Shown piece by piece: positions 6,347-26,874 of a stretch of DNA of 64,000 nt. A program made the translations under genes and the position numbers. Positions within the stretch are counted from its first letter, which is position 1. Each line of letters begins with the position of its first letter. The DNA lies in the NCBI GenBank assembly GCA_002783405.1, contig PFGG01000020.1:57106-121105 (forward strand), given 5' to 3'. The notes under the pieces were generated by a model. That model worked only from the letters and a program-made list of their open reading frames with translations. It was not told the DNA's origin and did no database searches. This DNA comes from a bacterium (Candidatus Blackallbacteria) CG13_big_fil_rev_8_21_14_2_50_49_14. GTDB lineage: Bacteria > Cyanobacteriota > Sericytochromatia > UBA7694.

Positions 6347-9300
6347 ATGACTGAAAATCTTTCTGATCTGAATGCCGAACTTCACCAAGCCATCATTTTA
6401 CAAAAAAACGATCGTGTCAAAGCTTTGCTCAAATTGGGAGCAAACCCCAATCTGGTTTACCAATCCCAGCCCCCCTTACACTGGGCCGCCTGTTACCCCA
6501 GCAAAGCCATCATCACCGAATTGCTGAATCAAGGCGCAGATATTGATATTCGCGATACGAATTATCAGGAAACAGCGCTGTTTAAAGCCCTGCGCTATGG
6601 CCAAAACGAAATTGCCCGGTTTTTACTCACTCAGGGAGCCAAAACCCAAATTAAAAATGCCTGGGGAGAAACGCCGCTGCACCTGGCTGCATCACGTCAA
6701 GATTTGGATTTAGTTCAAAACCTGCTGGGGGATGGCCGCCATATAAACCAACGTACCTATTTTGGTCAAACGCCCTTACACCAGACAGCCATGCAAGGCA
6801 GCCTGCAAATGGTTAAATTTCTGATTGAAAAAGGCGCCAATCCCAATAAAAAAAATAATCAGGGCCTAAATGCCCTGCTGTGTTCCGTCTTTCAAAGCAA
6901 GCCCGAGATATTTGCCTATCTACGCCCCCTGGTTCGACGCTATACCGCACAAACACGTCTACAAGCCCTCAAGCTTGCACTCCAATATTTGCGTGTGGAA
7001 ATGGTGGCCTACCTGCTCAAACCTGAAGATCTCAAGACCCCACTGGGCCCTGAACACCCCCTTCTCTTGGCATTAAAGGCCGGGCATACTCCCCTGCTTG
7101 ATCTGCTCAAAAAACAGGGAGCGGATCTCAATGCCTTTACTCCTCAGGCGGAAACACCCCTCCATTTAGCCACTGAAGCCAATTGGTTACTGGGTGTAGA
7201 CTGGCTGCTGAAAAACGGAGCCAACCCACTGGCCCGCAATGCACAAGGGCAAACAGCCCTGGCCAAGGCCCTGCAGCAAGGAAATTTGCCCTTAAGCGAA
7301 AAGCTATTAAAAGGCTGGCAAAATCCTGATCTTTGTCTGGCTCCAGGTGAATCCAGCCTGGCTTTGGCAAAAAAAGCAGGGAGCCCCGAAATAGCCCGAC
7401 TGCTGCTCATGGCTGGAGCCCAAATTCAAGGCGAATCAGCCAAAACCTGGGTGGATAACACTTTTTATCTGCAAAAATCCATGCGCTTGATGGTGGAGCC
7501 TGGCAGCAGTGAATTGCCCCTCTCCTTTCTGGTAGGACTGCAAAAAAATATTGAGAGCCTGGGATTTATCCTTTCTCCTGCCCTTGCAGAGCGGATCTTG
7601 ACTCTTTCAGAAAGCAGCTTCAAGGCTTTCTATGTCGATTTGATTCCCCTGCTTCAAAAAGCGGTGGGGGCTCACAAAGTCTTTCAACCTATGTATCCCA
7701 ATTTCCCAGATCAGGTTCAGAAAATGCCCGATTGGGAACTGCATTTCAATGCCCTGCGGCATTATTGGGGAGATGCCATCGGGCAGCGAATCATGCCGCA
7801 TTATGCAAAGCAAGAACGCCCACCCCTGGCAGAGACTTCGGCATTTAAACAACTCGATCTGGGAAATGCAGAAGATTTCCTCCAAATTTTTGTGCGCCTG
7901 CAAAAGGCCAAAATTGCCCTCAGTCCAGAAGACAAACAACTCTTGGAGTGGTTTGTCTTCAGCCGCAGAGAAACCCTGTTCAAGCTGCTGGAAGCACAGA
8001 TTCCCCTGCGCGAAAATGCCGCTTTGCTGGCAGCCGCTTTGCTCACCCATCTTCACGCACCTGAACAGGCGGTGGTTTATCTTACCAACAGCACCGATGT
8101 CTTACGGCTCGCCACCGTTCTGTCCAAGGGCGATGTGAGCTTAGCTGAAAAGACAAAGTTTATCAGTTTCTCAAAAGCCCAACGCCGATTTTTACTGGCT
8201 CAATTCGAGCGAATGCAAGATCTGACAGAAGCACTGCAAAAACGTCCTGAAATCTTCAAACGCCTGGCAGAGCGCCTGCATCCAGGTGAGTACGCAAAAG
8301 CCTATCCCCAAACCTTTGCCGCCTTTCAAGCCCTACGCCAGGGAAGAAAACAGCCCTGCTTTGGACGCGCACTTGAAATGGCCTTGGCTGAGAAAAATCT
8401 CGCTCAAGCGCTGAAAGTCTTAACACCCCGACCTGGTGAATTGGCCCGCCGCTTGGATCATCTTCTGCGCATCAGCCAAGATCCTGGGCCTGTTTTAAAA
8501 CAGTTTGAGCATGCGGCCAAGGGGCTTCCCAGCGCACTTTTACTCCAAGTCATGGCCCATTTTGAGTTCCGCCCCCATCCCCCTGCGCTCAGGGTCTTTT
8601 TTCCCAAGGGCGAAGTCGCAAAATTGCATGCGCTTGATACGCTTTTGCCTCCCCTTTCTACTGCAGTTTGTGCAGAAGTGGTTCAAGCCTGTAAAAGTGC
8701 GCTTCTTGCGCAATACCAGCAAAGGCCCAGCCTGGGCAAAGTTTATCTCGATCCTCACTTGAAAAATTTCAAAGTGCCCTTCGCCCTGCGCTCAGCCTCA
8801 AAAGCCCTGCGTACCGTTGCGCGGGGCAGCCGTGTGCCCTTGGGGCCGGGTTCCACACTGCGCTTTTTTATTTGGTGGAAAGACGGAAAAAACCGTACGG
8901 ATCTGGATTTAAGTGCCCTGGCACTGGATCAGGATTTTGCCTATCAAACCACGCTCTCCTACTATAATCTCAAGGAATTGGGGGGCTGCCACAGTGGGGA
9001 TATCACCTCAGCCCCTGAGGGAGCCTCAGAATTCATTGATCTTGAAATTGAAACCTTCCTGAAAACAGGCTGTCGCTATGTCCTAATGGTGGTCAATTCA
9101 TATACAGAGCAGCCCTATTGTGATTTACCCGAATGTTTTGCGGGGTTTATGCTGCGAACAGAACCCAATAGCGGAGAAATTTATGAACCCCGCACCGTGC
9201 TGAACAAATTTGATTTAAGCGCCAATACCAAAATCGCCCTGCCCCTGATCCTGGATCTTGAAAAACGGGAAATGATCTGGACTGATTTAGCGCTTAAAAA

Positions 9301-9526
9301 GAACCCCAACCACGTCAACAATGTGCACGGCAACCGTTCAAACCTGTCTTTGCTCTGTCAGGCCATGACAGAATTACAAAAGCCCTCTCTTTACCAGCTT
9401 TTGAATCTGCATATAGAGGCAAGGGGAGAAAGGGTGGCCACACGTGCAGAGGCAGAAACGATCTTTGCCTTGGATCAGGGCATCACGCCCTGGGATACGG
9501 ATCAGTTAATCTCAGCGTTTCTTTAA
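6347..9526 (+). CDS. Ankyrin-repeat protein with C-terminal TerD-like domain
   Basis: A 1059-residue cytoplasmic protein without a signal peptide. Residues about 8-380 hold about ten ankyrin repeats with typical cores such as GETPLHLAASRQDLDLVQNLL and GQTPLHQTAMQGSLQMVKFL. Residues about 390-790 are helical and unassigned. Residues about 830-1000 resemble the TerD stress-protein superfamily: DLDLSALALD is followed by SYYNL, CHSGDI and FIDLEIETF, the spacing in which TerD proteins place calcium-binding Asp residues. The same domain occurs at the end of large MXAN_6230/SCO0854-type proteins in tellurite-resistance gene neighbourhoods. Its partner is unknown; no other ter gene is in the window. 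The ankyrin call is secure, the TerD call moderate. Confidence 0.85.
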   Translation: MTENLSDLNAELHQAIILQKNDRVKALLKLGANPNLVYQSQPPLHWAACYPSKAIITELLNQGADIDIRDTNYQETALFKALRYGQNEIARFLLTQGAKTQIKNAWGETPLHLAASRQDLDLVQNLLGDGRHINQRTYFGQTPLHQTAMQGSLQMVKFLIEKGANPNKKNNQGLNALLCSVFQSKPEIFAYLRPLVRRYTAQTRLQALKLALQYLRVEMVAYLLKPEDLKTPLGPEHPLLLALKAGHTPLLDLLKKQGADLNAFTPQAETPLHLATEANWLLGVDWLLKNGANPLARNAQGQTALAKALQQGNLPLSEKLLKGWQNPDLCLAPGESSLALAKKAGSPEIARLLLMAGAQIQGESAKTWVDNTFYLQKSMRLMVEPGSSELPLSFLVGLQKNIESLGFILSPALAERILTLSESSFKAFYVDLIPLLQKAVGAHKVFQPMYPNFPDQVQKMPDWELHFNALRHYWGDAIGQRIMPHYAKQERPPLAETSAFKQLDLGNAEDFLQIFVRLQKAKIALSPEDKQLLEWFVFSRRETLFKLLEAQIPLRENAALLAAALLTHLHAPEQAVVYLTNSTDVLRLATVLSKGDVSLAEKTKFISFSKAQRRFLLAQFERMQDLTEALQKRPEIFKRLAERLHPGEYAKAYPQTFAAFQALRQGRKQPCFGRALEMALAEKNLAQALKVLTPRPGELARRLDHLLRISQDPGPVLKQFEHAAKGLPSALLLQVMAHFEFRPHPPALRVFFPKGEVAKLHALDTLLPPLSTAVCAEVVQACKSALLAQYQQRPSLGKVYLDPHLKNFKVPFALRSASKALRTVARGSRVPLGPGSTLRFFIWWKDGKNRTDLDLSALALDQDFAYQTTLSYYNLKELGGCHSGDITSAPEGASEFIDLEIETFLKTGCRYVLMVVNSYTEQPYCDLPECFAGFMLRTEPNSGEIYEPRTVLNKFDLSANTKIALPLILDLEKREMIWTDLALKKNPNHVNNVHGNRSNLSLLCQAMTELQKPSLYQLLNLHIEARGERVATRAEAETIFALDQGITPWDTDQLISAFL

Positions 9527-16423: not shown

Positions 16424-18361
16424 TTATCTAAAAAGTGTATTAATATCATCCACAATCGCATTGTGGGTACTGATAATTTTAGAAATCGCAGCAAAGACTT
16501 TCTGCGCCAAGCCCAACATCGGCACGTATTCAGTCAGTGAAGCGGTTGAGGTTTCAAGTGAAGATTGCACCACCCGTGAAGATTGACGCTCTTGCCAAAG
16601 ATTTTTAATCTCAACAGCAGCATTTTTCAAAACACCTACACTGAACAAATCACCCGCTCTGAGCTGGTTGTATTTGCCTTTGAGATCAAAGGTCATGTCA
16701 TGAACCTGAAGCTCATTGAACTGGTTGCGAACACTCAAATAGCCGCTGAGGTCGTCACCCGCACCGCCCAAATCAAAGGTTGCGAGCGTGCCATTGACAG
16801 AAAAAGTAACGACCTTTTCAGCACTCAAAGAGACAGCAATTCTGGCAGTATTTGGCAATGCCGACAAAGCAGCTCCAGAGCCAACGGTAGCAATCACAGG
16901 CATGGCCACAGGGCCAGCGATCTGAAAAGAGGTAGCAGGGGGATTGTAGCCATCGGCCTGCTGAAAGAGGCGCACGGTACCCGCAACAGGATCATAACGC
17001 AGGCTGAAACCACCCGAGCGTAAATCATGGGAATCTTTTTGACCAAAACCAATCACAATTTGAGAACCTGCTTCATTGGAGACCTTTACATTCATCTCCA
17101 TTTCAAACTGCGTGGTCTGGCGACTTTCGCCCAAGACCATACCGGCAGAACCTGTAATGTTTTGAGACCGGATAAAGCCATTGACCTTGTCATGAAAATA
17201 GGTGGGTACGGGGGTAATCAATTGGCTGATGGGCATCGCCGTGGTATAGGTTCCCCCGCCAATATCCAGCACATCAAATTTGGCATTGGTGCTGTTATCA
17301 ATATCCCGTCCACTCTCTAAAAGGGTTTCAAGAACCCCATTGCCATTGGTATCGTTAATGGGGTTTGAAGCTTTGTTAAAGTCGATTTGGAAAAACCGAC
17401 GCAAGGCATTGCCATTCGCTCCACCCAATATAATATTGGTATTGTCACCCACCGCAATCTGTTCATTGCGAATCACCAAATGGTCGGCCACCTGATCAAA
17501 ATAGGCACTGACGCGCCCCCCAACCGTGGCTCCATAGGCATTGATCGCAGTCACAATATGGTCGATCGAATTGGTGGTGGGGTTAAATTGTGTCCCCACC
17601 CCCAACGGGTTGAAGAGATTAAAATTAAAAAGCCCATTCACACCCAAATCAATCGAAAAATCAGTATTGGTCCCCACAGGAGAGGGAGGAACCGTGACAA
17701 AATTGGGGTCATTGACCGAAGCCAGGATATCGGGGTCATCGTAAATATAAGTCACCCCATCGGTGGTCGATTCAAAGGAGTTTTGCACCCGCAAAGGCAG
17801 ATCACCATCCACCTGAAAAACCGTAGAGCCATATTGAGACATCAAAAGTCCGTCACGATTGGCCACACTGACCAACATAAAAGATTTATCGCCATGTTTC
17901 AGCAATTCTTTTGAATAGCCATCAACACTGAAAATATCGGAACGATCTGAAACATCTTTGCGAATAAACTCTTCACCACTTGAAACCACTTTCAAGCCCG
18001 CGCTGTTGACCAGAAAACCGTTCTGATCCCAGTGAAACTCACCATCTCGGCTTAAAAAGTAGCGTCCAAAATTATCCGCCAAGACGAAAAAGCCTTCACC
18101 TTGAATCGCAAAATGAGAAGAAGATTCAGAATTAACAATCGAGCCCTGGCCCCATTCAATCGTCGTGGCCTGAACTGAGAGGGTAGAAGGAGGAGCGTCG
18201 AGAACTTTATTGGTAGTGGTTAACTGACCCAAGCCATCTGACAGACTGATACGGGTAGGCTTAAAACCCGTACGCGAAGTACCTTCCATATTCGAGTTAA
18301 TCATGCCGATCCAGGAGTTGACCGCAAGCAGTGAATTGACGCCAATTTTATCAAGAGACAT
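16424..18361 (-). CDS. Flagellar hook/rod-like protein with inserted domain, paralogue 1
   Basis: A 645-residue axial-type protein. The N-terminus (LLAVNSWIGMINSNMEGTSRTGFK) corresponds to the FlgE/F/G D0 helix, where the usual ANNLANxxTxGFK reads INSNMEGTSRTGFK. The D1 signature SSHFAIQGEGFFVLADNFGRYFLSRDGEFHWDQNGFLV matches IxGxGFFxVxxxxGxxxYTRxGxFxxDxxGxLV. The C-terminal helix (LETSTASLTEYVPMLGLAQKVFAAISKIISTHN) corresponds to LExSNVDLxxEMxxMI. About residues 420-580 resemble a concanavalin-like jelly-roll insertion. It may build an external filament or hook. No other flagellar gene is nearby. RBS AAAGG; the neighbouring gene is a paralogue of identical length. Confidence 0.85.
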   Translation of the reverse strand: MSLDKIGVNSLLAVNSWIGMINSNMEGTSRTGFKPTRISLSDGLGQLTTTNKVLDAPPSTLSVQATTIEWGQGSIVNSESSSHFAIQGEGFFVLADNFGRYFLSRDGEFHWDQNGFLVNSAGLKVVSSGEEFIRKDVSDRSDIFSVDGYSKELLKHGDKSFMLVSVANRDGLLMSQYGSTVFQVDGDLPLRVQNSFESTTDGVTYIYDDPDILASVNDPNFVTVPPSPVGTNTDFSIDLGVNGLFNFNLFNPLGVGTQFNPTTNSIDHIVTAINAYGATVGGRVSAYFDQVADHLVIRNEQIAVGDNTNIILGGANGNALRRFFQIDFNKASNPINDTNGNGVLETLLESGRDIDNSTNAKFDVLDIGGGTYTTAMPISQLITPVPTYFHDKVNGFIRSQNITGSAGMVLGESRQTTQFEMEMNVKVSNEAGSQIVIGFGQKDSHDLRSGGFSLRYDPVAGTVRLFQQADGYNPPATSFQIAGPVAMPVIATVGSGAALSALPNTARIAVSLSAEKVVTFSVNGTLATFDLGGAGDDLSGYLSVRNQFNELQVHDMTFDLKGKYNQLRAGDLFSVGVLKNAAVEIKNLWQERQSSRVVQSSLETSTASLTEYVPMLGLAQKVFAAISKIISTHNAIVDDINTLFR

Positions 18362-18505: not shown

Positions 18506-20443
18506 CTATCTCAACAAGGAATTCAGGTCATCGATCATTGCATTATGCGTAGAAATCACCTTCGAAATCGAAGCAAAAACTTTTTGTGCCAAGGCCAACA
18601 TCGGCACATATTCCGTCAAAGAAGCCGTGGAGGTTTCCAAAGAAGATTGAACCACCCGTGTACGCTGACGTTCCTGCCAACGCTCCACGATTTCGACATT
18701 GGCAATATTGGTTTGGCTCATACTGACGATGTCTCCGGTGCGAGAGACATTATAGGGTTGATGAAAATCGGCCTGTAAATTGTAGATCTGCATGACATTG
18801 GCCGTGTTGCGAATGGTAAGATAGCCCCCAATATCATCGGCAGCCCCCGAAAGATCAAAAACAGCGGTATTGCCATTCATACTGACTGTTAAAATATGCT
18901 CCGGGCTCATCGAAAAAACCAGCCGTCGCAGGGGGTCTGCAGCTGTAGGGGGAGAACCCGCTGAAGCCATCGGAGGCAGGGCCAGAGTTTGCAAAACAAT
19001 ACTGGTACCATTGGCATCTTTTGGGTTTTCAAGCAAGGTAAGCGTACCCACCGAAGTATCATAGACCACACGAAAACCCGTAGAAAAAAGCTGGTGGGGA
19101 TCATTCTGACCAAAACTGAAGGTCAGAAATCCGGCCGAAGCCTTCATATCCAAAATCACATCAAACTGATTGGTCTCCTGAGACTCACCAATCACCATCG
19201 CGCCACGGCCCGCCACCGAAGCATCCGACTGCAAAAAACCATTGGCTTTGTCATGAAAATAAGTCGCAGGAAAACGGGGAGACTGACTGAGAGATTGGAT
19301 ACTGGCATTTACATCTGCGGCAACCAAATCCAGGGCCAAGCGTTTGGCACTGTTATCAATATCTTTATCACTCTGCATCATCGATTCAAGGTTGCCATCC
19401 AGATCAGCATCATCGATGGGATTGGTTGCCAGGTTTTGGCCAATTTGAAAAAATTTGCGCAAAGGTGTGGCATTGGGGCCATAAAAAGCAATCTGCGTAT
19501 TGACTACCCCACCGCCTATATTTTGCTCATTGCGAATAATCAACTGATCGGTATTGGGGTCAAAAGCAGCAGAAACTCTTCCGCCAACAGTGGCTCCATA
19601 GGTATTAATCGCATTCAAAATATGTTGAATCGTATTGGTGGCCGGATTAAAATCCAAAGGCGTGGCACTGGGAAAAGGGCCACCCGCCAAAGGGTTATAA
19701 TCGCGAAAATTCATAAAGCCATTGTCGCCAAAATCAATCGAAAAATCCGTATTGGAACCCGCTGGGAAGGGGGGAATCGTGACAAATCCCGGCGCATCTA
19801 CAGAGGGCAATTGATCGGGGTCATCATAGAGCAGGGTCAGTCCATCGGTGGTTTCGGTCATGTCGTTGCGAATCCGCAGGGGCAATTGGCCATCAATCGA
19901 AAAGACGGTCGATCCATACTGGCTCATCTGCAGGCCATCACGATTCGCTACATCCACAATCAAAAGTGATTTATCGCCATAGCGCAGCAGCTCCTGAGAA
20001 GCCCCATCCGGTTGAAAAAGATCTGAACGGTCCTGTTTGGCCAGGCGGATAAAATCCTGCCCGCTGGAAATCACTTTTAAGCCCGCACTGTTGGTCAAAT
20101 AGCCATTGCCATCCCAATGAAACTCACCATCTCGTGTCAGATAATAACGGCCAAACTGATCCGCCACCACAAAAAATCCTTCACCCTGTAAAGCAAAATG
20201 ACTGGATTGTTCAGAATTGACGATCGCACCCTGGCCCCATTCCAAAGAGGTGGCCTGTACATTCAGGGTTGAGGGGGGAGATTCAACCCCTCTTACAGCA
20301 GTTAACTGCCCCAAACCATCGGAAAGAATCGGACGCACGGTTTTAAAACCTGTACGAGAGGCCCCTTGAAGGTTGGAATTGATTAAGCCTATCCAGGAGT
20401 TAACCGCTAAAAGCGAGCGAACACCTACCTGGGAGAGCGACAT
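18506..20443 (-). CDS. Flagellar hook/rod-like protein with inserted domain, paralogue 2
   Basis: A 645-residue paralogue of the 16424-18361 protein with the same architecture: hook-type N-helix (VNSWIGLINSNLQGASRTGFK), D1 signature (FALQGEGFFVVADQFGRYYLTRDGEFHWDGNGYL), a variable centre with a jelly-roll-like insertion, and a nearly identical C-terminal helix (VVQSSLETSTASLTEYVPML). The termini are much more conserved between the two than the central parts, as expected if both polymerise through D0/D1 and expose different surfaces. It lies upstream of paralogue 1 with a 144-bp spacer and has its own predicted promoter. Confidence 0.85.
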   Translation of the reverse strand: MSLSQVGVRSLLAVNSWIGLINSNLQGASRTGFKTVRPILSDGLGQLTAVRGVESPPSTLNVQATSLEWGQGAIVNSEQSSHFALQGEGFFVVADQFGRYYLTRDGEFHWDGNGYLTNSAGLKVISSGQDFIRLAKQDRSDLFQPDGASQELLRYGDKSLLIVDVANRDGLQMSQYGSTVFSIDGQLPLRIRNDMTETTDGLTLLYDDPDQLPSVDAPGFVTIPPFPAGSNTDFSIDFGDNGFMNFRDYNPLAGGPFPSATPLDFNPATNTIQHILNAINTYGATVGGRVSAAFDPNTDQLIIRNEQNIGGGVVNTQIAFYGPNATPLRKFFQIGQNLATNPIDDADLDGNLESMMQSDKDIDNSAKRLALDLVAADVNASIQSLSQSPRFPATYFHDKANGFLQSDASVAGRGAMVIGESQETNQFDVILDMKASAGFLTFSFGQNDPHQLFSTGFRVVYDTSVGTLTLLENPKDANGTSIVLQTLALPPMASAGSPPTAADPLRRLVFSMSPEHILTVSMNGNTAVFDLSGAADDIGGYLTIRNTANVMQIYNLQADFHQPYNVSRTGDIVSMSQTNIANVEIVERWQERQRTRVVQSSLETSTASLTEYVPMLALAQKVFASISKVISTHNAMIDDLNSLLR

Positions 20444-21294: not shown

Positions 21295-21781
21295 CTTCAA
21301 GCGGCTCCAATTCTACCAAAACCTGGCCAGTACTGACTGAATCACCCGCTGCACAGTGAATTTTCATCACCCGTGCAGCAAAAGGCGTCATCAAAGCAGT
21401 CTCCATTTTCATAGACTCCAAAATCACGGCAGAAACACCGGCCTCAAGTGTTTGCCCCTCTTCAACCTGAACCTGAAGCACCTTGCCCGTGAGCGGGGCT
21501 TCCAAATGATTAGAAACCGGATCTTCGGGCTGATGTGCTGAAGCCTTTTTCTGACGTTCGAGCAGATAGGTCTGGCCTTGAAAGCTCAAGAGCAGATGAT
21601 TGCCTTCTTGTACGGCATGCACCAACGAAACCTGACTGCCCTGGCGAACCAAAAAGGTCCCGGCCTCTAATTCCTGAACCGACACCGTCTGTGATTCTGC
21701 CTCAGCGCTAAAGAGAAACTGCTGATCCTGCCACTTGCCATCCAAGTCATAGAGACTGTGGTGGTGTTTAAAGACAGGCAT
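21284..21781 (-). CDS. Biotin carboxyl carrier-like protein
   Basis: A 165-residue protein. The C-terminal 70 residues are a biotinyl/lipoyl domain (PLTGKVLQVQVEEGQTLEAG, then ESMKMETALMTPFAARV, where the Lys of MKM would be biotinylated). The first 90 residues resemble the beta-strand-rich domain before the biotin domain in acyl-CoA carboxylase alpha subunits. No carboxylase or carboxyltransferase gene is in the window, so its partner must be elsewhere. Its ATG overlaps the deoC stop by one base. It may be a remnant or a stand-alone carrier of a pyruvate, acetyl-CoA or propionyl-CoA carboxylase. Confidence 0.85.
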   Translation of the reverse strand: MPVFKHHHSLYDLDGKWQDQQFLFSAEAESQTVSVQELEAGTFLVRQGSQVSLVHAVQEGNHLLLSFQGQTYLLERQKKASAHQPEDPVSNHLEAPLTGKVLQVQVEEGQTLEAGVSAVILESMKMETALMTPFAARVMKIHCAAGDSVSTGQVLVELEPLEDDV

Positions 21782-23181
21782 TAATACTTGCCCCCGCCAC
21801 TGGCTTTGGTGCCCGTTGCAATCGCAATACTGGCACTGGCGCCAATTCGGGTCGCTCCGGCCTGAACCATTTTAATCGCGGTTTCACGATCGCGAATGCC
21901 ACCCGAAGCTTTGACTTCCATATCGGGTCGAATCGTTCTGCGCATCAGGGCCACATCCTGCTCGGTCGCACCGCCTGGGCCAAAACCTGTTGAGGTTTTG
22001 ACAAAATGGGCACCGGCCTTTTCAGAAAGCTGGCAGGCAATGACTTTTTCTGAATCACTCAGCAGTGCGGTTTCAAAGATCACCTTAACCGTATTGCCTG
22101 AAGCAGCCTGAACCACTGCACGAATATCTTCTTCGACCAACTTCTCTTTGCCACTCTTGAGGGCCCCCACATTGATGACCATGTCAATTTCCTGAGCACC
22201 ATTGGCTACCGCATGTCGGGTTTCATCGGCTTTGGTCTGGGAATCAGTCGCACCCAAGGGGAAACCGATCACTGTACAGACCTTAACAGGCGTGCCTTTC
22301 AGCAATTGTGCACAGAGCGAAACCCAGGTCGGGTTCACACAGACCGAAGCAAAACTGTATTCTTTGGCTTCGGCACAGAGCTGTCGCACCTGGGCTTCGG
22401 TAGCTTCAGCTTTCAAGAGGGTATGATCGATCAAGGGGGCCAAATCAGCGGGAACCGGATGCATTCCCAAACTGGTTGCCACACGCTGGGCTCCGGCCTG
22501 AACCAGACTACGCACCCGGTCTGTACAGGCCGTCGCACAATTTCCATGCAATTCACAGCCTTGGCAATTGGCGGGTAAAGCAGGAGCGGCCTTCACACCT
22601 GCACCGGCAAGCGGCTGAGAAATATTCAAGGGCAAAGGAGGCAAAGGCAAAATATGTTCAAGATCGGTCAGACGTCCCAATTTAACACCCAGGGTGCTCA
22701 ATTTTTTGCCCAAATCAGCCTCATGCTCCAACAGAAAATCGTCAAGCAACAAAGCTGTCTTGCTGCGGCTCAGGGCCTCGACCACCAAAGCAGAAACAAG
22801 ATTTTCACGGTTCATGCGGCTGATCTGCTGCATCAAGGTTCGGTTGGCCCCAACAATCGCCACACGGTCGACACTGTCGAGCAGGGCTTTGGCCTGGCCA
22901 GGACGGGCTTCAGGCGAAACAAAGCTCACTTCCAAGCCCTGGGCCGCAAAGGGCGCTCCGGTCCACAGGCCCTGGGCCCATTTGGGTGCCAAAAGCTGTA
23001 AGTGGGCACGGGATTTCCATTTTCCCAATTTGGCCAGAACAGGTTGCAGATCCAGATCTGATCGGGAAAAAACGATCAGCACCCGGCTGTAGGGAATCGC
23101 AGGAGAATGAGGAGCCTGCCCCAGATAGAGTTCTGCGAGCAATTCACGGGTTACTTCTTCAGCAATTTTTTCAATATTCAT
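21781..23181 (-). CDS. deoC: Deoxyribose-phosphate aldolase with N-terminal extension
   Basis: A 466-residue protein whose C-terminal part (about 240-460) is DeoC, which cleaves 2-deoxyribose 5-phosphate into glyceraldehyde 3-phosphate and acetaldehyde. Key residues are visible: Asp in [11 protein letters not shown], the Schiff-base Lys in [13 protein letters not shown] and the second Lys in [10 protein letters not shown]. The N-terminal 180 residues form an unassigned alpha/beta domain starting with an amphipathic helix ([18 protein letters not shown]) of the sort used to target enzymes to bacterial microcompartments. A linker contains [18 protein letters not shown], a four-Cys cluster that could bind metal. 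Usual DeoC is 220-260 residues. Operon: rpiB (3 nt upstream), deoC, biotin carrier, rlmB. Confidence 0.9.
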
Positions 23182-23890: not shown

Positions 23891-24460
23891 ATGCCCCCTA
23901 AAAACCTCATCCTGGGATGGTTCCTGATCACCGTTTTGCTTTGGGGTTGCAATAGCCCTGAAGAAGTCAAGCCAACCCCTTCAGCAACCGCTCCAGCTGC
24001 CACAGCAACGGCGGGAACCCAAACCTCTGCAACCCCCACAGCTTCTCCCAGTCCAGCCATTGCTTACAGTGAAGTTTTCAGAATTACCTATTTCAGTTGC
24101 CTGCCCTGCCATAACCGCAAGACCTTGCCCCAGGTCATCGAAAGGGTCAAGGCTGCGCATTTTGATACCGTCGATGGCGAAGACCGTTTGCGTGTTCTGG
24201 CTGAACTCGAAGGCTTAAAAGACCGTCAGGACAAAGGAGAAGCTCTCGGGTTCAGCAGTGGCCAAGAAGAACTCATGCATTTGTTTGGTGGCATTCCAGG
24301 TGGTTTTTATATCATGCTTGAAAGAGGGGTGATGCCCCCGCCGTGGGCCCCGGATCTGATGCAAGCCATTGATTGGCCCAATTATGAACGCCTGAGCATT
24401 GAGAACCGAGCCAAACTTTTGCAATTCGCCAAACCTCATTCTGAGAGGTATATCCCATGA
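23891..24460 (+). CDS. Monohaem c-type cytochrome lipoprotein
   Basis: A 189-residue exported protein. The signal segment ILGWFLITVLLWGC ends in a lipobox-like LLWGC, so the Cys is probably lipidated. A Pro/Thr/Ala/Ser linker (about 25-60) precedes one haem motif, CLPCH. The region after it has no standard cytochrome c fold by eye; MPPPW near residue 150 could supply a Met ligand. The start is uncertain between a TTG at 23879 and this ATG at 23891. It overlaps the peroxidase gene by 4 nt (ATGA) and is likely its electron donor or partner. Confidence 0.75.
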   Translation: MPPKNLILGWFLITVLLWGCNSPEEVKPTPSATAPAATATAGTQTSATPTASPSPAIAYSEVFRITYFSCLPCHNRKTLPQVIERVKAAHFDTVDGEDRLRVLAELEGLKDRQDKGEALGFSSGQEELMHLFGGIPGGFYIMLERGVMPPPWAPDLMQAIDWPNYERLSIENRAKLLQFAKPHSERYIP

Positions 24461-25542
24461 AAAAACAATTCACTCTGCTCTCTTGCCTGGGGCTTTTGGC
24501 CTGTACTCCCAATCCGCTTGAGAAACAAAGCCAACCCAGCCCCCAGGCCTCGGCTTCAGCCAGTGCAAGCGCCAGTGCCAGTGCCAGTGCCAGTGCCAGT
24601 CTGCCGCCCATTTCTTCGGAAGATTTGGCGCTGATCACGGAGGCCAATCTTCATTTTCAGGCTTTAACAGCCAAAACCACGCCCAACCCAGATCAAGTAG
24701 CATTGGGAAAAATGCTCTTTTACGATCCCCGCTTGTCAATCAACAATAAGATCAGCTGCAAATCCTGCCACAATCTTGAGAGCTTTGGTGTCGACAACCG
24801 CGCCACTTCCCTGGGCCATGTTTCACAAACCGGAACCCGCAATGCCCCCACGGTTTTAAACGCCGTCTACAATAAAACCCAGTTCTGGGATGGCCGCGCC
24901 AAAGATCTGCAAGATCAGGCCGGACAACCGATTTTAAACCCCTTGGAAATGGCCATGCCCAGTGAAAATGCAGTGATTCAAAAACTGTCAAAGATCTCAG
25001 GTTACCGCGACTCCTTTCAAAAGGCCTTTCCAGGTCAGGAAAATGCACTGACCTATGCCAATCTGAGCCTGGCCCTTGCCCGTTTCGAAGAAACCCTGAT
25101 TACGCCAGGACGCTTTGATCAATTTCTGCAGGGAGATGGAAAAGCCCTGAACGACGCAGAAAAAAAAGGGCTCAAAGCGTTTATGAACAAGGGTTGCGTC
25201 GCCTGCCACAATGGCCCAGGCCTGGGCGGCGAAAGTTTTCAGAAATTTGGAGTAATTGCCCCCTATCCCCACCAGACCGATCCTGGGCGCTATGAAGTGA
25301 GTAAACTTGAAAAAGATCGCTATCTGTTCAAAGTGCCTTTACTTCGCAATATTGAACATACCCAGCCCTATTTTCACGATGGGAAAATCGCCGATCTCAA
25401 AGAAGCTGTGCGGATCATGGCCAAAACTGAATTTGGGGATGACTATAGCGAAGCCCAAATTGAAGAACTGGTCACGTTTCTGAAAAGCCTGAGTGGCCTT
25501 GTGCCTGCAGAAGCCAAAGCAGCGCCTGTTTTGCCCCCATAA
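24457..25542 (+). CDS. Di-haem cytochrome c peroxidase lipoprotein (CCP/MauG family)
   Basis: A 361-residue periplasmic enzyme that reduces hydrogen peroxide with electrons from a c-type cytochrome. The signal peptide ends LLAC, a lipobox. A low-complexity linker of alternating Ala and Ser (about 30-48) follows. Two haem motifs are present: CKSCH near residue 107 and CVACH near 247. Also visible: GKMLFYDPRLS at the start of the catalytic domain, RNAPTVLN, FWDGRAKDL, and C-terminal VPLLRNIEHTQPYFHDGKI, all CCP hallmarks. Length of the catalytic part is normal. Coupled to the upstream cytochrome gene. Confidence 0.94.
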   Translation: MKKQFTLLSCLGLLACTPNPLEKQSQPSPQASASASASASASASASASLPPISSEDLALITEANLHFQALTAKTTPNPDQVALGKMLFYDPRLSINNKISCKSCHNLESFGVDNRATSLGHVSQTGTRNAPTVLNAVYNKTQFWDGRAKDLQDQAGQPILNPLEMAMPSENAVIQKLSKISGYRDSFQKAFPGQENALTYANLSLALARFEETLITPGRFDQFLQGDGKALNDAEKKGLKAFMNKGCVACHNGPGLGGESFQKFGVIAPYPHQTDPGRYEVSKLEKDRYLFKVPLLRNIEHTQPYFHDGKIADLKEAVRIMAKTEFGDDYSEAQIEELVTFLKSLSGLVPAEAKAAPVLPP

Positions 25543-25593: not shown

Positions 25594-26874
25594 TCAGGCA
25601 TAAAGGGGGTGATTTTGAAGATATTCGGCAACCTCAGGCAGCACCGATTTCTGCCAACCCGATTGCCCTGTTTGCAGGGCTTCACGGATCTGTGTCGAGG
25701 CGATGGGTTGATCAAAGGCTAGAAAGTGACAGTGTTCTTTCCAAGTCTCAGCCGCTTGAGCGGCCTCAGGCCCAAACCCCAGCGAATTTTTGCGCCCGCA
25801 AACCCACAACTGGGTTCCCTCTGCAAAAAGCCGCTCAAGCCCTTCGCTGAGCCCGCCGCTTAAACTTTGGTAATAGCGGGGTTCAAACACCCGGTAGTAG
25901 AGGTCTTCTCCACAGACAAAATCAAGCTGGGTGATCTGACCCTCAGCCCTGAACAATTCAGCGGTCTGGTAAAGTGCCGGTGTGCGCGTCAAGGCAACCG
26001 GCCAGTTTTGAAAAGCCAACATGCTCAAGCGGTGCGCCAGATTATCAAGCGCGGCAGTCCCTTTATCCGCATTGTTGAGACTGATCTCAAGCACAGGCAA
26101 AAGCTCTGGCTGCTCGCTCAAAACGGCCTGTGGCATGGCCAGATGCGCCAAAGTGACAGGGTTAAAGGAACCCTTGTGAAGCAGAATGTTTTTACCGCGC
26201 AGAAACTCAAGCGGACGCATAGGCAGCAAGCGCCCGGCTTGGGGTAAAAACAAGAGCAGGCCATGTGGCTGTTTCTGCATCAACTGACCTGCTTGCAGAT
26301 AGGTTTGAAAGGGTGATTCATGCCAGGCCAGCCACACATCAAGCTCAAGCCCCACAGGTATCTCAAGCGTCTCCAGTACCAGCCCATCCTCTTGCGCCAA
26401 CTGGGCCAGTAAATGCACGCCCAAAACCCCCAGCGCGAATTGTTGTTCCAAACGCTCAGCTTGTTTCAAGCGCAGATGCAAGGTCCAGCCACGACCGTCA
26501 GAAAGCGCCAAAGCCAACCAGGCATGGCAATCTCCCTGTGCCATGCCTGAACGAACCGCGCCACTGATGGCCAGAGAGAAAAATTTATCGGCTGTGCTTA
26601 AATTCTTACGCGCCCAGCTCTCAACCGTGCTTTGGGCAATCGAGCGACTCTGTTCTCCATAAAAAGTGACTTGGATTTCTTTGGCATAGGAACAACGCCC
26701 TGCCCAAAGCGTTTGAGAGGCACCGGAAACGGTCTGCAAAAGCGTTTGAATCCAGCCCCCTGTTCCGACTTCTTCAAGCACGCCATGCCAGGGGGAGGCA
26801 TGCAAAGCAAGAATCTCAGGCTCTAAAGCCTGGATTTGTGTTTCAAGTGCAGCATTTTTTTCTGTGAAGGCCAT
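25594..26874 (-). CDS. CinA-like domain fused to nicotinate/NMN adenylyltransferase-like domain
   Basis: A 426-residue two-domain protein. Residues about 20-190 resemble the CinA C-terminal domain (NMN amidase PncC), but the catalytic motif AESCTGG reads EEVGTGG (residues 34-40), so the nucleophilic Ser is Val36. Residues about 225-425 resemble NadD/NMNAT-type nucleotidyltransferases: GSFNPVTLAHLAM stands for the (H/T)xGH motif as TLAH, followed by DFVCGEDLYYR and, near the C-terminus, ASTQIREAL (the ISSTxIR motif). Both domains belong to pyridine-nucleotide metabolism. The first may bind NMN or nicotinate mononucleotide without cleaving it. Start ATG at 26874 with AGAGG 6-7 nt upstream. Confidence 0.78.
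   Translation of the reverse strand: MAFTEKNAALETQIQALEPEILALHASPWHGVLEEVGTGGWIQTLLQTVSGASQTLWAGRCSYAKEIQVTFYGEQSRSIAQSTVESWARKNLSTADKFFSLAISGAVRSGMAQGDCHAWLALALSDGRGWTLHLRLKQAERLEQQFALGVLGVHLLAQLAQEDGLVLETLEIPVGLELDVWLAWHESPFQTYLQAGQLMQKQPHGLLLFLPQAGRLLPMRPLEFLRGKNILLHKGSFNPVTLAHLAMPQAVLSEQPELLPVLEISLNNADKGTAALDNLAHRLSMLAFQNWPVALTRTPALYQTAELFRAEGQITQLDFVCGEDLYYRVFEPRYYQSLSGGLSEGLERLFAEGTQLWVCGRKNSLGFGPEAAQAAETWKEHCHFLAFDQPIASTQIREALQTGQSGWQKSVLPEVAEYLQNHPLYA

Follow-up and report, generated by a model that had tools for sequence, protein, structure and literature searches.

Does the NMN deamidase PncC hand its product to an adenylyltransferase when the two occur in one chain, or has one of the partners changed its role? 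PncC is described as the key step by which most bacteria recycle NMN (PMC3680494), and a gene in the window, by which we mean the whole stretch of 64,000 nucleotides analysed here, was predicted from its sequence to join a CinA-like (PncC) domain without its catalytic Ser to a nicotinate/NMN adenylyltransferase-like domain. The original prediction held that such a fusion could channel nicotinate mononucleotide (NaMN) from PncC to NadD, or that the CinA domain may have become a substrate-binding or regulatory domain.

A CinA-fold domain is joined to an NMNAT-fold domain

The gene is a single ORF of 426 amino acids with an ATG start, and is divided as follows (window coordinates).

25594..26874 (-): whole gene, window-type fusion of CinA-like domain, linker and NMNAT-like domain (ORF, AF2 model, fold search)
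26383..26856 (-): CinA/PncC-fold domain, residues 7-164 (fold matches 2a9s and 5kvk; hhalign)
26197..26382 (-): linker region, residues 165-226, 62 residues (AF2 full model; least conserved segment)
25597..26196 (-): NMNAT/NadD-fold domain, residues 227-426 (fold matches 5das and 1kqo; hhalign)

Against sequence libraries the window protein scored 21.9 bits with the CinA family PF02464 (residues 35-108; 24.0 bits at the fusion in a six-frame search; cut-off 23.5), 15.9 bits with TIGR00199 (cut-off 68.9), 14.7 bits with PF01467 (cut-off 21) and 43.7 bits with the NadD model TIGR00482 (residues 235-425, E 3e-11), for which the cut-off of 112.45 was not reached. There was no match to TIGR01526 (NadR) or TIGR01527 (NadM) at E <= 10. 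An AlphaFold2 (AF2) model made from five aligned homologues (mean pLDDT 84.8, pTM 0.82) was then compared with the PDB. The CinA domain matched 2a9s (Z 14.2, rmsd 3.5 Å over 157 residues) and 5kvk (Z 14.3, 3.4 Å over 150), and the NMNAT domain matched NadD 5das (Z 16.4, 2.8 Å over 182) and human NMNAT1 1kqo (Z 15.1, 3.3 Å over 189). Comparison of profile A1 by hhalign with ten canonical CinA domains (E 3e-5) and with ten NadD proteins (E 8.9e-15) gave the same two assignments, which are weak by sequence libraries and firm by predicted fold and profile comparison; the predicted fusion of a CinA-like to a NadD/NMNAT-like domain is borne out. The linker is modelled as alpha/beta within the full-length protein and poorly when modelled alone (pLDDT 64.9), and it is the segment with the lowest conservation (45, 32 and 39% identity to the homologues in G001, G004 and G002).

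Pfam scores under curated cut-offs are what a chance resemblance or a misassembled gene might produce, but we rejected this explanation, whose probability we regard as negligible: folds were matched for both parts, and homologues with the same architecture occur in four further genomes. Because independent metagenome-assembled genomes (MAGs) show it, the fusion is not an assembly artefact. The difference from the nearest orthologue at codon positions 1, 2 and 3 (0.34, 0.25 and 0.58) is highest at position 3, where a gene constrained at the protein level should vary most.

The CinA domain has lost both residues of the catalytic dyad

Residues were mapped with an alignment of ten canonical CinA domains and eight fusion proteins, using A. 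tumefaciens PncC (AtCinA) as the reference.

26755..26775 (-): EEVGTGG, residues 34-40, block P-I, canonically AESCTGG (alignment; block definition PMC3855486)
26767-26769 (-): Val36, replacing the nucleophilic Ser (alignment)
26716..26724 (-): GAS, residues 51-53; Ser53 corresponds to phosphate-contacting Ser48 of AtCinA (alignment, PMC5384747)
26686..26688 (-): Tyr63, corresponding to phosphate-contacting Tyr58 of AtCinA (alignment, PMC5384747)
26671..26673 (-): Gln68, replacing catalytic Lys63 of AtCinA (alignment, PMC5384747)
26560..26565 (-): Ser104-Gly105, corresponding to Thr105-Gly106 of AtCinA (alignment, PMC5384747)
26452..26454 (-): Arg141, where the last CinA helix starts, opposite phosphate-binding Arg145 of AtCinA in the alignment (AF2 model, alignment, PMC5384747)

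The loss of the nucleophilic Ser stands, with Val36 in its place. The original prediction had counted one lost catalytic residue; there are two, since the general-base Lys is also gone (Gln68). Both dyad residues are missing in all eight fusion proteins found, which have Val (four), Ile (three) or Asn (one) at the Ser position and Gln (four) or Ser (four) at the Lys position. The AtCinA variants S31A and K63A have no detectable activity and are still folded, their melting temperatures (86 and 78 °C versus 85 °C) showing no large change (PMC5384747), and the Lys of the dyad is described as absolutely conserved (PMC4246079). The NMN amidase activity of the window protein is, judging from these replacements, almost certainly dead. 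Channelling of NaMN from an amidase to a NadD-like domain is unlikely because both dyad residues are gone and the AtCinA point mutants are inactive, and we rejected it.

The rest of the site is partly kept. The window protein (P0001) has Glu35, Thr38, Gly40, Ser53, Tyr63, Ser104, Gly105 and Arg141, and of the ten residues on the active-site list of OiPncC, where Ser or Thr is allowed at one position, it keeps eight, the two lost being the Ser and the Lys of the dyad (PMC3855486). Ser stands in place of Thr105 in about half of the CinA family (PMC5384747). In AtCinA the phosphate is held by Ser48, Tyr58 and Arg145, and R145A and Y58A are inactive while Y58F and T105A are crippled (PMC5384747). 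This Ser/Tyr/Arg set is kept in 4/4 window-type proteins. By alignment Arg141 is likely the counterpart of Arg145; gapless matching of helix ends by eye shifts the register by three residues and makes Gln144 the alternative. Other features are gone: the ribose-facing AGP loop (A108-G109-P110 of AtCinA) reads V-R-S, the structural Met88 is lost, and 14 of the 24 CinA-invariant columns are changed. The proportion of invariant columns kept (10/24) is nevertheless higher than that of other fully occupied CinA columns in which the majority residue is kept (14/119; Fisher p 0.0012). Kept phosphate-binding residues are consistent with the idea of a substrate-binding or regulatory domain, and a role in binding a mononucleotide would be the most economical account of why they persist in the window type. 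Elsewhere among the fusions the set is altered, the protein of G006 having Lys where the window protein has Arg141, and the paralogues described below having lost both the phosphate-binding Arg and the Ser of GAS.

Adenylyltransferase motifs checked in the NMNAT domain are kept

The following features lie in the C-terminal domain, all placed by alignment.

26143..26175 (-): KGSFNPVTLAH, residues 234-244, nucleotidyltransferase signature, its first His replaced by Thr
26062..26064 (-): Lys271, at the position of the PPHK Lys in NadD
26029..26031 (-): Arg282, at a position where NadD has an invariant Arg
25903..25914 (-): CGED, residues 321-324 (GxD of NadD)
25792..25794 (-): Arg361, at a position where NadD has an invariant Arg
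25684..25698 (-): STQIR, residues 393-397 (STxIR motif of NadD/NMNAT)

The window protein keeps G235, F237, P239, H244, K271, R282, G322, D324, R361, S393 and R397, and the pattern G.F.P....H, Lys, Arg, GxD, Arg and S(T/S)xxR is kept in 5/5 proteins (the four window-type proteins and that of G006). Like the aligned animal NMNAT3, the window protein has Thr where the HxGH motif of NadD begins with His, and no residue in the alignment clearly corresponds to the invariant NadD Trp. Both motifs cited in the original prediction are present, EEVGTGG at residues 34-40 and TLAH inside KGSFNPVTLAH. With these residues in place the adenylyltransferase domain is probably active.

Relatives and a divergent paralogue

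A protein search of 59 relatives returned eight matches in five genomes. Window-type proteins occur in the genome of the window itself (G000) and in G001, G004 and G002 (61, 54 and about 47-48% identity to the window protein), and a distant fusion occurs in G006 (22%); G000, G001 and G002 also encode a longer paralogue (26-28%) as a second protein. Across 386 genomes of the phylum, profile A1 matched over both domains only in these five; its other matches under E 0.001 were short and weak (34 bits or less) and mostly covered one domain. A pattern scan of contigs across other phyla, by which divergent members would be missed, found four relatives, all Sericytochromatia, and the named records that come closest are Candidatus Sericytochromatia MAGs. 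The plasmid and phage collections gave no match to the window protein, and the plasmid collection none to the paralogue or the G006 relative, with two weak paralogue hits at E 10.

The paralogues lie at the following loci.

L007:1456-2877: paralogue
L006:1453-2883: paralogue
L008:1435-2865: paralogue

The paralogue is homologous to the window type across both domains (hhalign E 8.5e-19, 391 columns), and the fusion is therefore older than the split between them. In the residue alignment GxFxP....H survives in all three paralogues, but not the Lys, the GxD Asp, STxIR or the second of the two Arg. Signature positions are altered in both domains, yet the paralogue is 78-83% identical across two genera: the G000 protein shares 83% identity with that of G001 and 78% with that of G002 (88 and 89% in the CinA part), compared with 61 and about 47-48% for the window protein and 69 and 44% for NadD in the same pairs. 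For annotation the lesson is that Pfam and NCBIfam score the fusion under their cut-offs and the paralogue not at all (no family matched in L007 or L006, the two of three scanned). Neither the window protein nor the paralogue matched anything in the PHROGs and PADLOC libraries.

The paralogue may have bacterial relatives in other phyla, and eukaryotic proteins such as Arabidopsis AT3G27610 may combine CinA and NMNAT domains. It is mainly because of these possible eukaryotic counterparts that we do not call the architecture new. AT3G27610 appears in one paper under the label 'Nucleotidylyl transferase superfamily protein' and nothing further, and within the literature and terms searched we found no paper with a CinA-NMNAT fusion as the subject of its title or of the start of its abstract.

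NAD genes in genomes that carry the fusion

Our class sample comprised 18 genomes (the examination of PncC took in 20, two of them outside the class). Canonical CinA/PncC is present in 12/18 and absent in G000-G004 and G006, and the fusion is present in 5/18 (G000, G001, G002, G004 and G006). No class genome has both, and G003 has neither. This complementarity (Fisher p 0.0007, kinship uncorrected) comes from related genomes, with carrier MAGs 73-96% complete, and perhaps amounts to two independent contrasts; the PncC-less MAGs G000-G004 and G006 are 96, 94, 91, 83, 73 and 74% complete. None of the five genomes of the family has canonical PncC.

The original prediction proposed looking for separate PncC and NadD genes. 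A separate, complete NadD is present in the window's own genome (G000:C41, 167 bits) and PncC was not found there. Separate PncC and NadD beside an unconserved adenylyltransferase motif, the combination named as evidence against the fusion's proposed role, is not what we observe, with PncC absent and the motif kept in 5/5 proteins. Each of the genomes G000-G005 has a NadD over the cut-off; G006 does not, and there the fusion might be the only NMNAT of any kind. We give this no weight because the completeness of G006 is 74% and G007 (94%) is likewise without NadD over the cut-off. A second NadD-like domain lies outside the window in a 756-aa ORF (L069:2140-4407, G000:C75), at residues 88-283 (TIGR00482 94.5 bits, below cut-off); it comes after an apparent signal sequence (by eye), and the roughly 470 residues behind it match no Pfam family.

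A full-length NadR-like protein was found only in G000, G001 and G004 (283, 246 and 254 bits; cut-off 341). That of G000, an NadR-like NMN adenylyltransferase/ribosylnicotinamide kinase below cut-off (L073:4255-5235, G000:C20:40293-41213), is encoded on the window's contig about 16 kb before the window. NadM at cut-off and PnuC were each found in 0/18 class genomes, and the weak NadM hits checked in G000, G002 and G006 proved to be CoaD. In G000 and G002, a PncB over its cut-off is adjacent to a PncA-like ORF below its own. NAD-dependent DNA ligase, the expected source of NMN, was matched in 7/7 genomes of the order (over cut-off in six, a fragment in G005). G002 and G006 lack PncC, NadR and NadM, which leaves them the fusion as the one candidate NMN adenylyltransferase from the families searched; the window's own genome has a second candidate in NadR. 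The distribution suggests, from a small and related sample, that PncC-less genomes with the fusion have switched from NMN deamidation to direct adenylylation.

Possible functions of the fusion protein

Our preferred interpretation, to which we assign a probability of about 0.5 and which we draw from sequence comparison and modelling, is that the protein is an adenylyltransferase of the NAD pathway with a non-catalytic, PncC-derived domain that probably binds a pyridine mononucleotide. The C-terminal domain would convert NMN and/or NaMN with ATP to NAD or NaAD. The N-terminal domain would descend from the NMN deamidase PncC and, after loss of the Ser/Lys dyad, would have been kept in a non-catalytic role, in which it probably still binds a pyridine mononucleotide and either tunes the adenylyltransferase, feeds it or brings about its dimerisation. 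In carriers without PncC, NadR and NadM the fusion could then recycle ligase-released NMN directly to NAD. Several observations count against this. The window's own genome has NadD and the NadR-like protein, and there the fusion is not the sole NaMN/NMN route. Its TIGR00482 score falls far short of the cut-off, the NadD Trp lacks a clear counterpart, and the VRS loop, missing Met88 and 14/24 changed invariant columns speak against ligand binding. A broader proposal, that one family of Sericytochromatia dropped PncC and replaced NMN deamidation by direct adenylylation, that the dead PncC serves as an NMN sensor or presenter for the fused adenylyltransferase and that the paralogue is a dedicated sensor of pyridine nucleotides or a regulatory partner, is one we consider doubtful.

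The loss of the AGP loop and the presence of separate NadD and NadR would also be expected if the CinA domain were a dimerisation or structural remnant without a ligand, attached to a second, redundant NaMN/NMN adenylyltransferase, and canonical CinA does form homodimers in which the pocket is shared (PMC3855486, PMC5384747). A bare scaffold, however, needs none of the phosphate-binding Ser, Tyr and Arg that 4/4 window-type proteins keep despite the 14/24 changed columns, and we consider this account somewhat unlikely, if a serious contender. We think it improbable that the C-terminal domain acts on a substrate other than NMN or NaMN, with the CinA domain binding that substrate or its product, outside the NAD pathway altogether: the scores against NadD equivalog models are low, NadD and NadR already handle both mononucleotides in the window's own genome and the neighbouring genes (RpiB, DeoC, cytochrome peroxidase, ferrochelatase and UDG) give no hint of NAD, but NadD and NMNAT give the best matches by fold and by profile, both parts descend from NMN/NaMN enzymes and the pattern with PncC is complementary. 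We consider it very unlikely that the CinA domain is still an NMN amidase that uses a different catalytic residue, with NMN passed on to NaMN and NaAD by channelling. Although the fusion occurs in genomes without canonical PncC and the hydroxyls of Thr38, Ser53 and Ser104 lie near the site, such an enzyme would have to do without a dyad that is absent from 8/8 fusions, of which either member, when replaced, leaves AtCinA without detectable activity, and whose Lys is described as absolutely conserved.

Relation to known proteins

With PncC/CinA proteins (PF02464; AtCinA 2a9s, TtCinA 4ct8) the fusion shares the fold, the GAS/Tyr/Arg set, the Glu and Thr of block P-I and the T/S-G of block P-VI; it differs in the replaced dyad, the lost AGP loop, the NMNAT-like domain that follows and the lack of a preceding COG1058 domain. 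With NadD (TIGR00482) it shares the fold and the G.F.P..H, K, R, GxD, R and STxIR positions, and it differs in having Thr for the first HxGH His, a score under the equivalog cut-off and an extra N-terminal domain. Eukaryotic NMNATs (human NMNAT1 1kqo, NMNAT3 5z9r) have the common fold and GSFNPxTxxHL with the same Thr, whereas their identity to the fusion is about 20% and those chains are without a CinA domain. The NadM-Nudix and COG1058-PncC fusions of PMC3680494 likewise combine an NAD-recycling enzyme with a second nucleotide-handling domain. There, however, the second domain is an active ADP-ribose pyrophosphatase, whereas the window fusion has a PncC relative without its dyad, and the excerpts of that paper report PncC or NadM joined to ADP-ribose pyrophosphatases and no PncC-adenylyltransferase fusion. 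Fungal lineage 2.2.3.4 and E. coli YfaY/YdeJ are PncC-derived proteins whose NMN amidase is predicted or shown to be lacking, like that of the fusion, but in the excerpts of PMC3855486 no adenylyltransferase fusion is described for them, and the fungal Ser is replaced by Ala, unlike in the window protein. In Synechococcus, a true cyanobacterium, NMNAT-C is an NMN adenylyltransferase, and the excerpts of PMC13036487 do not describe a CinA fusion.

If our preferred interpretation is right, the window protein would clearly exemplify how an enzyme can become a module that binds a ligand within the pathway it once served, bacterial sensing of NMN levels would become testable on one small protein, and the fusion may have altered NAD recycling in these non-photosynthetic relatives of cyanobacteria.

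Gene neighbourhood

No conserved NAD operon surrounds the fusion gene in G000, G001, G002 or G004. The neighbours in the window were assigned by Pfam (the peroxidase as a di-haem cytochrome c peroxidase, UDG as uracil-DNA glycosylase). By eye, RpiB and DeoC likewise follow the fusion gene in G001 (L058), and one neighbour in G002 and G004 is a different ORF common to both.

Several other genes of the window merit mention. The DeoC ORF (window 21781-23181, 466 aa) adjoins RpiB, an order kept in L058, and its first approximately 245 residues have no Pfam match and include a Cys-rich stretch. The di-haem cytochrome c peroxidase (window 24457-25542) has a long Ser-Ala repeat after an apparent lipoprotein signal. 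Two ORFs in tandem (window 16424-18361 and 18506-20443), both exactly 645 aa long, each carry a flagellar hook FlgE/F/G D1 domain, and window 6347-9526 encodes an ankyrin-repeat protein of 1059 aa.
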